DNA of 33,335 nt, from positions 1-33,335 of the forward strand of contig JAFAQY010000116.1 of the NCBI GenBank assembly GCA_019261985.1, in the 5' to 3' direction. This DNA is from Bryobacterales bacterium. GTDB taxonomy: Bacteria; Acidobacteriota; Terriglobia; Bryobacterales; Bryobacteraceae. The position numbers and the translations under genes were made by a program. Below are positions 83-12,478 of the stretch, piece after piece. Every line of letters starts with the position of its first letter. Position 1 is the first letter of the stretch. The notes below the pieces were generated by a model that was given only the letters and a program-made list of their open reading frames with translations, was not told the DNA's origin and did not search any database.

Positions 83-140
83 ATGGCGAGGCAGTCAGAC
101 CTTCGTCAGTGCTCTTCGATTACGTGCATAATTTAGGTTT

Positions 141-173
141 GGCAACCCGCCGCAGGCTGGCAGCCTGCCCCAC
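141..173. repeat. Single hairpin-family repeat fragment before queC
   Basis: This 33-bp stretch nearly matches 11590-11622 in the same orientation, differing at two positions. The two differences lie on opposite arms of one stem: GCAGGCT-GGC-AGCCTGC here against GCAGGTT-GGC-AACCTGC there, so pairing is kept. It ends in CCTGCCCCAC (164-173), the reverse complement of GTGGGGCAGG, which begins each unit of the array at 11313. It ends 10 bp before the queC start codon. Confidence 0.75.
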
Positions 174-3403: not shown

Positions 3404-3580
3404 AGAAACAGCGTACAGCACTCGGCGCGAGAAAAAAGCACAAATATTTTTTAAAATCCCGGCCGCGCCGCGCTGCGTTGTGCGCGATGTCAGAAAACAG
3501 CGCACAGCGTTCGGCGCGAGAAAAAAGGACAAATATTTTGTAAATTCGCGGCCGCGGCCCGCTGCGTTGTGCGCGATGTC
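3404..3580. repeat. Two-copy tandem direct repeat, units of 88 and 89 bp
   Basis: Unit 1 covers 3404-3491 and unit 2 covers 3492-3580. They align over their full length with scattered substitutions. Both begin AGAAA(A)CAGCG, share CGGCGCGAGAAAAAA and ACAAATATTTT in the middle, and end CTGCGTTGTGCGCGATGTC. At the unit junction GCGTTGTGCGC (3475-3485) can pair with GCGCACAGCGT (3500-3510) across a 14-base loop, with one G-T pair. The AT-rich middle between GC-rich flanks is unlike neighbouring DNA. A 64-codon frame runs through both copies but has no protein-like character. Confidence 0.9.
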
Positions 3581-3591
3581 AGTAAAAGAGT

Positions 3592-10338: not shown

Positions 10339-11298
10339 TTACTGAAGCAGAACCTTCAGGACGCCCTTCGTCGCCGCCTTTCTGAAAGCCTGGGGAGCCT
10401 GATCCAGCGTGAACCGATCCGAAATCAAGCGGTCTACCTTTACGCGCCCCGATGATAGCAGCCTTATCGCAGGCTCGAACCGGCCGCAGCGCGACCCGAC
10501 CAGAGTTATTTCGTTCACGATCGCCGGAGCCGTATCGATTTTCACCAGCCCGTGAACCGTTGATTTCATAATCACCGTGCCGCGCGGCTGGCAGAGCGCG
10601 ACGGCCGCGCGCAAGCCTTCGGCGGATCCGGTTGCATCCACCACCATCGGCCATGCCCGTTCCGGCAGCGCCTTTCCGATTACTTCCGTGCTGATGCCAT
10701 CGCCCTCAATCAGCCGCAATTTTTCCCGATGCCGGCCGTAAACGTGCACTCTCGCTCCACGCGCCCGGAGCACTTGCGCCACCAGCAGCCCGAGCTTGCC
10801 GTCTCCTAACACGGCGACCGGCGCTCCCGCCAAAACCCGGACCTGATCGAGAATCTCGCACGCGGCGGCAACCGGCTCGATGAACACCGCCTGCTCGTTC
10901 GAGATCGACGAAGGCACGATGTGCAGATTGCGCACGGGCAGTGTTAGGAACTCGCGGAAAGCGCCGGGATGCTTTACGATCCCAAGCACAGTCCGGTTCG
11001 GGCAGTGGCGGCCCAAATCGCGTGCGCACCATTCGCAGGCTCCGCACGCGAGATTGATTTCGCCCGCGACGCGCTTTCCGATCCAACCCGTATCTTCGGC
11101 CGCCGTCACCTCGCCCACAAATTCATGCCCGGGCGTACCGTGAAATCCGTAGTAGCCGCGCTGAAGTTCCAGATCCGTGGAACAAATGCCGGCGGAAAGC
11201 AGGCGAATGCGAGCAAAGCCGCGTGGCACGCGCGGCAAAGGTTCTCGGCGCACCTCCACCCGGCCATTTTCGAGATGAACAGCAAGCATGTAAGTCAT
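10339..11298 (-). CDS. Zinc-dependent medium-chain alcohol dehydrogenase
   Basis: This 319-residue member of the MDR superfamily probably oxidises a polyol or sugar alcohol with NAD(P). Catalytic zinc ligands are C39 in GICSTDLEL, H58/E59 in PGHEFVGEV and probably E141 in FIEPVAA. The structural zinc set is C85, C88, C91 and C99. The Rossmann nucleotide-binding loop is VLGDGKLGLLV, a GxGxxG variant. The N-terminus could equally start at the ATG at 11289 (MLAVHLENG), three codons in. Its length is slightly below the family norm of about 340. It is divergent from the AraD1-like gene, with the repeat array between them; together they hint at sugar-acid or polyol breakdown, but the substrate cannot be told from sequence. 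Confidence 0.86.
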   Translation of the reverse strand: MTYMLAVHLENGRVEVRREPLPRVPRGFARIRLLSAGICSTDLELQRGYYGFHGTPGHEFVGEVTAAEDTGWIGKRVAGEINLACGACEWCARDLGRHCPNRTVLGIVKHPGAFREFLTLPVRNLHIVPSSISNEQAVFIEPVAAACEILDQVRVLAGAPVAVLGDGKLGLLVAQVLRARGARVHVYGRHREKLRLIEGDGISTEVIGKALPERAWPMVVDATGSAEGLRAAVALCQPRGTVIMKSTVHGLVKIDTAPAIVNEITLVGSRCGRFEPAIRLLSSGRVKVDRLISDRFTLDQAPQAFRKAATKGVLKVLLQ

Positions 11299-11312
11299 AA
11301 CTTAACGCGGTA

Positions 11313-11622
11313 GTGGGGCAGGATGCCATCCTGCGCGCGGTTGCCAACCGCGCTGGGCGGGTTTGCACACACTCCAAACGCCGAAGGTTGGCAACGTGAC
11401 TTTACGCACGCTAGTGGGGCAGGATGCCATCCTGCGCGCGGTTGTTAACCGCGCTGTGCGGTCTTTGCACACACTCCAACCCACTGAAGGTTGGCAACCT
11501 GACTTAACCACGGTCGTGGCGCAGGATGCCGTCCTGCGCGCGGTTGCTAACCTCGTTGTGCGCTTTGCACACACCCGGCCAGGCGGGTTGGCAACCCGCC
11601 GCAGGTTGGCAACCTGCCCCAC
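11313..11622. repeat. Array of three ~101-bp hairpin-bearing tandem repeats with terminal inverted ends
   Basis: Units start at 11313, 11414 and 11516 with GTGGGGCAGG (GTGGCGCAGG in the third). Each carries a stem GCAGGAT/ATCCTGC (or a close variant) and a second stem GCGCGGTT/AACCGCGC. The three-base loop of the second stem differs between units (GCC and GTT), and in unit 3 the right arm has mutated. Units share TTTGCACACAC in the linker. Unit 3 ends with two more stems, GGCGGGTT/AACCCGCC and GCAGGTT/AACCTGC, and then CCTGCCCCAC (11613-11622), the exact inverse of the opening 10 bases. It fills the 349-bp gap between two divergent genes. Repeats lack the short uniform length and unique spacers of a CRISPR array. 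Confidence 0.92.
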
Positions 11623-11647
11623 GACAGGCTTGTTACGCTGAAAGCGA

Positions 11648-12478
11648 ATGTCCCGCCCCATCGCCACTCATCTGGTGCAGTTGACGCACCCGGACGAAGG
11701 GCGCCGTGCCGCGTTGGTGGATCGCAACGAACTGCATCTGCTGGCGACATATCGCTCCATTTTCGATTTCGCGATGGCGGCGGTCCAAACGCGCTGCAAG
11801 TTGCGCGATCTGCTCAGCATGGATTTGTCGGGCATTGTACTCGATTACCGCGAAGTCTATGCGCTCGAAACGCCGTGGCGGTTTTTGCCGGCCTTTGATC
11901 ATCCGCAGGAGCCAGGACGCTGTCTGGTGTCAGCAATCGCCGGCGGCAAATGGGGTTATCAAGGTTTGGGCGATAGCCTCGGCGGTCATGGCGAGCCGCT
12001 GCCGGTAGTGAATCTTCCAGCACGGATCGCTCTGCCCGAAATTGCTGCCGTCTACATCATCGGCGAAAGAGGCACGCCAAGGCGCGTGGGGTTGGCGGCG
12101 GGAATTCGCGGAGGGCGTCGAAACGCACTGGGCCCTGAGCTAGTGCTCGACGTGGATTTCCCTCAATTGGAGGGCGATGCGCGCCTTGTTGGTGAAGGAC
12201 GGGAAACCTGGTCCCGAAAAGTCTGCACTGGAGGCGTTTCGTTGCCGCTTGCGCTGGTCGCGGTTGAATCGGAGCACTTCCAAAACGCCGATCACCGCAG
12301 GCCGGGCGACACGCATGTTCACTTTTTCGGCGAAAAGCTGTTCGGCGCGGCGGATTGCCCGCCGGTGCATGAAAACGATGAAGTCACCGTGGAATTCAAC
12401 GGGTTCGGATGGCGGCTTATCGCAAAAGTTTTGGCCCAGCAGCTCGCGCCGGTGTTGGCGGGTGCGCTGCCGCTGTAG
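11648..12478 (+). CDS. Short AraD1/GguC-like member of the fumarylacetoacetate hydrolase superfamily
   Basis: The C-terminal half matches my memory of AraD1 (2-keto-3-deoxy-L-arabinonate dehydratase) and GguC proteins: PEIAAVYIIGERGTPRRVG, GPELVLDVDF, EHFQNADHRRPGDTHVHFFG. The N-terminus HLVQLTHPDEGRRAALVD also fits. At 276 residues it is about 50 shorter than usual. The middle lacks the segment containing the GNEFSDH-like metal ligands; instead the frame reads AAGIRGGRRNALGPEL, while the shifted frame at 12102-12131 reads EFAEGVETHW. It may be a catalytically altered paralog or a gene with compensating indels. It ends 4 bp from the convergent SNF2 gene. The substrate is unknown, possibly a sugar acid given the neighbouring dehydrogenase. 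Confidence 0.7.
   Translation: MSRPIATHLVQLTHPDEGRRAALVDRNELHLLATYRSIFDFAMAAVQTRCKLRDLLSMDLSGIVLDYREVYALETPWRFLPAFDHPQEPGRCLVSAIAGGKWGYQGLGDSLGGHGEPLPVVNLPARIALPEIAAVYIIGERGTPRRVGLAAGIRGGRRNALGPELVLDVDFPQLEGDARLVGEGRETWSRKVCTGGVSLPLALVAVESEHFQNADHRRPGDTHVHFFGEKLFGAADCPPVHENDEVTVEFNGFGWRLIAKVLAQQLAPVLAGALPL

Follow-up and report, generated by a model that had tools for sequence, protein, structure and literature searches.

The window, the 33,335-nucleotide stretch analysed here, is contig C137 of a 6.49-Mb genome assembled in 138 contigs. It contains a tandem array that occupies nearly the whole gap (11299–11647) separating two divergent genes, one of which encodes a member of the zinc-type alcohol dehydrogenase family (Table 1). 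The three units of about 101 bp described in an earlier, sequence-only reading start at 11313, 11414 and 11516 (spacings of 101 and 102), although unit 3 opens with GTGGCGCAGG and not with the GTGGGGCAGG assigned to all three. The last ten bases of the array, CCTGCCCCAC (11613–11622), are indeed the exact inverse of the first ten, GTGGGGCAGG (from 11313). Each unit had also been said to carry two stems with 3-base loops, which describes the left arms of units 1 and 2, whereas unit 3 has two hairpins in each arm, its hairpin B being partly decayed. Between units 1 and 2, for which differing loops on conserved stems had been claimed, only the hairpin B loop differs (GCC versus GTT); both A loops are GCC.

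Table 1 Features of the array and its surroundings in the window.
Feature	Position	Strand	Detail	Basis
Tandem array	11313..11622	+	three units of the dispersed element	repeat and sequence analysis
Unit 1	11313..11398	+	left arm intact (hairpin A 11318–11334, hairpin B 11335–11353), spacer, right-arm stub	
Unit 2	11414..11501	+	left arm intact (hairpin A 11419–11435, hairpin B 11436–11454), spacer, right-arm stub	
Unit 3	11516..11622	+	sole complete unit: A 11521–11537, B 11538–11556, B' 11582–11600, A' 11601–11617, CCCAC 11618–11622	
5' flank	11300..11312	+	recurs with variations at 11399–11413 and 11502–11515; belongs to the tandem period	
Solitary right arm	136..173	+	B'-A'-CCCAC, same family as the array units; upstream of the gene at ~183	
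Neighbour gene	10339..11298	-	zinc-type alcohol dehydrogenase family (ADH_N, ADH_zinc_N)	
Neighbour gene	11648..12478	+	276 aa, no Pfam match; homologues in 10 other genomes of the genus	

TRF reports a period of 102 with 2.7 copies over 11300–11574, so that about 13 bases of 5' flank are included in the repeat. Because the period takes in this flank, and because units 1 and 2 end in right-arm stubs, the array appears to have formed when one inserted copy, together with its 5' flank, was duplicated locally in tandem. Insertion would have come first and duplication later, with most of the right arm lost from two units. The solitary right arm near the start of the window is what a decayed copy would be expected to look like. 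Elsewhere, too, units form local pairs that span no more than a few hundred bases (L061, L194, L209, L201 and L241), with the units of L061 lying 191 bp apart and their flanks repeated. The window also holds, at 3406–3587, an 89-bp AT-rich/GC-rich mosaic repeat in two tandem copies, upstream of a large gene at 3569.

The dispersed element is about 108 bp long and reads GTGGG, hairpin A, hairpin B, spacer, hairpin B', hairpin A', CCCAC. Exact ends 80–110 nt apart occur at 55 places in the genome and at none for a reversed-pattern control, so the motif census proposed with the sequence-only reading comes out far above chance. We extracted 52 distinct copies, which keep exact ends and have unlike flanks. 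From 40 units (39 of these 52 plus window unit 3, itself matched at 106.1 bits) we built a covariance model, which finds at least 150 places in the genome at E ≤ 0.01 with 150 of 5,865 candidates scored. Across the 23 genomes of the genus, the exact pattern is present in four (55, 3, 1 and 1 places) and model matches in 11, with the proviso that outside the own genome both strands of one place can count. The elements lie mostly outside genes: 12 of 30 units fall inside crudely called open reading frames, against 1,306 of 1,500 random positions (87%). Among the ends of 84 further units, 108 of 168 begin GTGGGGC and 14 begin GTAGGGC.

These copies bear on the original proposal that the whole 310 bp forms one element bounded by its ten-base inverted ends. 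The exact inversion of its termini speaks for it, but the dispersed form is about 108 bp, each of the 52 extracted copies has both inverted ends, the tandem period includes 5' flank, and a whole-array search gave no 310-bp copy among the matches listed (40 of 466 candidates scored). We regard a 310-bp element as almost certainly wrong. What survives of the proposal is a bounded, hairpin-bearing and probably mobile element, and it is the unit that is bounded.

Hairpin A has a 7-bp stem and hairpin B an 8-bp stem, each closed by a 3-nt loop; the spacer is variable. Pairing in the four local hairpins reaches 97.7% across the 40 units, with 40 both-side changes where shuffles have 8.7 (none of 500 shuffles reached as many), and sliding the partner by 1–3 columns lowers pairing to 30–42%. 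The local stems are kept by paired changes. The idea that stems are kept while loops vary, doubtful from units 1 and 2, is borne out over these 40 family members: the loops, mostly GCC or GCT, drift chiefly at the third base, and in both A hairpins they always start with G. Arm-to-arm pairing is 75.4% in the same units, with six both-side changes against 18.7 in shuffles, so the arms match each other less than by chance. Folding of single units, also suggested at the outset, gives local hairpins for units 1 and 2 and for the separate arms of a transposase element on contig C47 (see below), with unit 1 barely beating its shuffles (z −1.75). The lowest-energy DNA fold of complete units instead pairs arm to arm (L003, z −7.9; window unit 3, z −4.9). 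Some copies have enlarged hairpins in the hairpin A loops (for example L026, L027, L035, L039, L043 and L047), with repetition of a portion of the stem-loop (ATCCCGGATGCCATCC, GCCATGCC); this suggests slippage or template switching within the hairpin.

A search with PF01797 gives five matches in the genome, of which one has a stop; it also matches five of 14 control genomes. Four intact genes, divergent from each other, encode RAYTs (Y1/HUH tyrosine transposases). The C47 gene, for a protein of 185 aa, lies between exact GTGGGGCAGG and CCTGCCCCAC ends 661 bp apart, and a gene on C52 lies between the same exact ends at a distance of 657 bp. The third, also on C52, is enclosed by GTGGAGC/GCTCCAC ends 671 bp apart, and the fourth (C119) sits among GTAG REPs. 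Scores against NF047646 (REP_Tyr_transpos, cut-off 80 bits) are 89.1 for C119, 79.7–80 for C47 (79.9 for the protein, 80 with frame neighbours included), and 76.5 and 68.9 for the C52 proteins; the IS200 model NF033573 gives 27 and 22.1 bits against a cut-off of 55. Sequence comparison with the PDB matches the C47 protein to E. coli TnpA-REP alone (4er8, E 3.3e-6), with which, by our own count, it shares W94, Q95, H101, R104 and Y115 and aligns E100 to an aspartate; guide-reading (W/Q/R) and catalytic roles of TnpA-REP residues are described in PMC6006769. A model of the protein (mean pLDDT 86.6) has 4er8 as its first fold match (E 9.4e-9), followed by the ISDra2 and IS608 transposases. In a 23-row alignment NHVH, WQ and Y are invariant in at least 21 rows, and the N, second H, W, Q and Y in all 23. 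Judged from these alignments, the HUH motif, the catalytic tyrosine and the W/Q/R guide-reading residues are conserved. Among named organisms, Bryobacterales and further Acidobacteriota hold the closest relatives of this genome's RAYTs, so its host probably belongs there too.

Hairpin A of the units recurs in just one of these RAYT elements, that of C47. The B hairpins of the C47 element, of a GGCC type, differ from those of most units and are matched in one, L030; the C52 element with exact ends has hairpin sequences other than the units'. The C47 RAYT likely moves these copies, and given its different B hairpins a further RAYT, perhaps missing from the assembly, could be the real mover. At C52:8974–10852 (L023, L024), a gene separates two distinct RAYT elements, which have unlike end sequences and are about 1 kb from each other. 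The fifth Y1_Tnp match (L025, C47:106142–106303) has an in-frame stop and is without GTGGGGCAGG ends. An ordinary single-hairpin REP, GTAGGACAAGCTTCAGCTTGTCC, is also present in the genome in 90 exact copies, of which some neighbour the fourth RAYT (C119, L021), and several pairs of these copies lie about 30 bp apart in opposite orientation. They provide a useful internal contrast to the double-hairpin family within one genome.

We compared 84 RAYT loci, 80 from relatives and the four described above. Paired inverted ends made of GTRG plus a hairpin occur at 33 of them and in none of 420 shuffles. By end class, 10 loci are double, three one-arm, 20 single and 51 without such ends, a second hairpin pair arising in 0 of 660 shuffles; the scan places L024, L087 and L102 in the last class, and by eye their ends look double. 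In a quick tree of 57 rows, seven of the nine double rows fall in a 16-row branch (support 93, drawn open) that holds all Acidobacteriota and own-genome rows. Over the RAYT tree the double label is not significantly clustered (8 changes against 8.5 when shuffled), which does not establish a single origin of double-hairpin ends.

The copies are dispersed with exact ends and unlike flanks, their flanks carry no target-site duplication, and RAYT genes lie between matching ends. We interpret the units as REPIN-like non-autonomous elements moved by a resident RAYT, and the window array as a later local tandem duplication, a reading to which we assign a probability of roughly 85%. Each element would consist of two inverse REP arms, in which GTGG is followed by hairpins A and B in a row. 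A RAYT encoded elsewhere, between the same ends, would read GTGG and hairpin A on the folded single strand and cut beside the arm; the element would then pass to new, mostly non-coding sites, leaving the target unduplicated. The base before the left end is most often T, and hairpin B would tell left from right. Transposition of the units, by such a single-strand route, is what we infer from these observations.

Target-site duplications, which the sequence-only reading had put forward as a check, are absent from the 52 units at 3 nt or more. The 84 further units have two at 3 nt (1.5 expected), two at 4 nt (0.2 expected; a small excess of direct flank repeats) and none of 5 nt or longer. Orienting the units by hairpin B, with the GCGCG arm as left, shows a T immediately before GTGG at the GCGCG end of 60% of the 136 units, compared with 22% in the distal flank, and a TT there in 42 of them; beside the other end, T (43%) and A (36%) prevail. 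The T preference is a bias with no fixed site. Among 100 A/T and T/A units (named for the variable base of hairpin A), it tracks hairpin B rather than A, which means that the element has a left and a right end; a link of the flank preference to hairpin A was considered and rejected. E. coli TnpA-REP cuts at CT, according to PMC8266576. CT precedes just 17 of 136 left ends, so the cutting rule here is not simply that of the E. coli enzyme. A search for an orthologous empty site by way of the downstream gene showed that 10 of the 22 other genomes in the genus have a homologue of it, with the dehydrogenase neighbour at 0 of 14 non-own loci; neither an empty site nor a movement was seen.

Inverted ends with exact borders in many copies would also describe a MITE of a DDE cut-and-paste transposon, whose DDE transposase would cut the ends as ordinary double-stranded terminal inverted repeats. 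Such an element is very improbable here: target-site duplication is absent, the transposase between the same ends is Y1 and not DDE (the profile searched being Y1), and it is the local hairpins that covary, not the arm-to-arm pairing. IS200/IS605 elements such as IS608 and ISDra2 are closer, sharing the Y1/HUH fold, subterminal hairpins, lack of target duplication and a base preference beside the left end. IS608 ends are not known to be inverted, whereas those here are; the transposase gene is single-copy per end type, with four divergent intact genes and no near-identical copies, and the IS200 model stays below its cut-off.

The position of the array admits a further reading, in which it is a host-useful nucleic-acid element that selection keeps in place, whether as mRNA stabiliser, attenuator, divergent promoter region or protein-binding site, and whose mobile origin is of secondary importance. 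Nearly filling a divergent-gene gap, the array must lie in or beside both promoter regions; its hairpins are stable, and REPs are known for roles in mRNA stability and gyrase binding (mentioned in PMC3733652 and among the works cited by PMC8049555). However, a sigma-70 promoter and intrinsic terminator scan found no match, an Rfam search gave none above threshold (two hits far under their gathering scores, both to animal families), two units are without most of the right arm, and copies recur beside unlike sequences. We consider selection for a host function an improbable main explanation, if somewhat less so than a DDE-type origin.

Returning to the units as RAYT-moved elements, their two arms differ from each other in a systematic way. 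At the variable position of hairpin A (left/right), 32 of the 52 units have A/T, nine T/A, three T/T, two A/A and six another base. A second set, the 84 units fetched later, gives A/T 47, T/A 13, T/T 2, A/A 1 and 21 other or uncallable. Fisher tests give p 9e-6 and 1e-10, respectively, which are not true probabilities because the copies are related. The configurations interleave in core sequence, 11 of 22 T/A units being nearest to an A/T unit, and T/A units neighbour each other above chance (11 versus 4.6, p 0.011); two founder lineages can thus be retained only in part. In three sister genomes, 13 of 15 parsed units (19 loci, read by eye) pair a GCGCG- or GCGAC-type B arm with an [GA]GCGGG-type arm. 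Hairpin A is unlike in the units of one of these genomes (G017) and alike in those of another (G004) and in one unit of the third (G001), so a rule that hairpin A is always unlike fails. Since the B-arm pairing recurs while A can be alike, unlike B is the stable feature. Hairpin B probably distinguishes left from right, and the second hairpin may mark the two ends both here and in the sister genomes.

A tentative and rather doubtful extension is a division of labour, in which GTGG and hairpin A form the common RAYT handle and B marks left (GCGCG/GCGAC, T-rich flank) against right ([GA]GCGGG), the code persisting while A alleles and loops change. If so, a joint exchange of the two A alleles, from A/T to T/A, would be the trace left by a circular intermediate with a palindromic, invertible end-to-end junction. 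Unlike arms may then also shield the element from destruction as a perfect palindrome; such protection would bear on the excess of REP heterodimers that PMC3733652 notes as unexplained.

The kind of element is already known, namely REPIN plus RAYT. As REPINs are described by Bertels and Rainey (2011, PMC3116915), they share with the units a spacer enclosed by two inverted GTRG-tagged REP arms, numerous and chiefly extragenic copies, a cognate RAYT, decayed single arms and tandem clusters that take in flanking sequence, the last reported there for P. fluorescens. The corresponding features here are the 52 units with both ends and hairpins in both arms around a short spacer, GTGGG at the palindrome foot before hairpin A, the 150 or more mostly extragenic copies, and the REP-flanked C47 RAYT with the same tag and hairpin A and other B hairpins. 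REPINs in that account have one palindrome per REP and usually a GTAG tag; the units have two hairpins per arm, systematically unlike arms and usually GTGG, and on account of the two hairpins we call them a REPIN variant. REP-Sm of Stenotrophomonas maltophilia group 3, as presented in PMC8266576, has a perfect 8-bp stem and a GCT loop (mostly GCC or GCT here), and an essential first loop G with no enrichment at the third base, in line with the invariant first G of both A hairpins in our 40 units. It differs in having one hairpin and GTAG, against a 7-bp hairpin A placed one base past GTGG and followed by a second hairpin.

The REPtrons and 'double foot' REPs of TnpAY1 subclass 2.4, as outlined in PMC6006769, also have GT[AG]G and its complement at opposite ends, with NHVH, WQ and Y..NP motifs in RAYTs of about 180–190 residues. 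Their double foot is one long hairpin, whereas four to five stem-loops lie between the feet here, and the YIELNP of the C47 protein is the motif printed there for subclass 2.1. TIRtrons (TIRYT), compared through their text description in PMC3733652, likewise combine Y1 transposases with inverted ends; that account mentions double palindromic TIRs around related transposases, a sharply defined Acidobacteria transposase group, and Pseudomonas TIRs that join a degenerate GTAG unit to another stem-loop. It presents TIRtron TIRs as for the most part unrelated to GTAG REPs, while the units here have GTGG and folded REP-like arms. Our literature search found no description of a REPIN with two hairpins per arm, unlike arms and a GTGG tag.

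An array with 'inverted terminal ends' can, as this locus illustrates, be tandem copies of one small element. The family adds a large REP population with two hairpins per arm and unlike arms in an Acidobacteriota-type genome, and separates questions that are usually tangled: what serves as the transposase handle, what marks left and right, and what makes unlike REP pairs so common. Its at least 150 copies, each with four hairpins, amount to a natural mutagenesis experiment on the substrate of a single-strand transposase.
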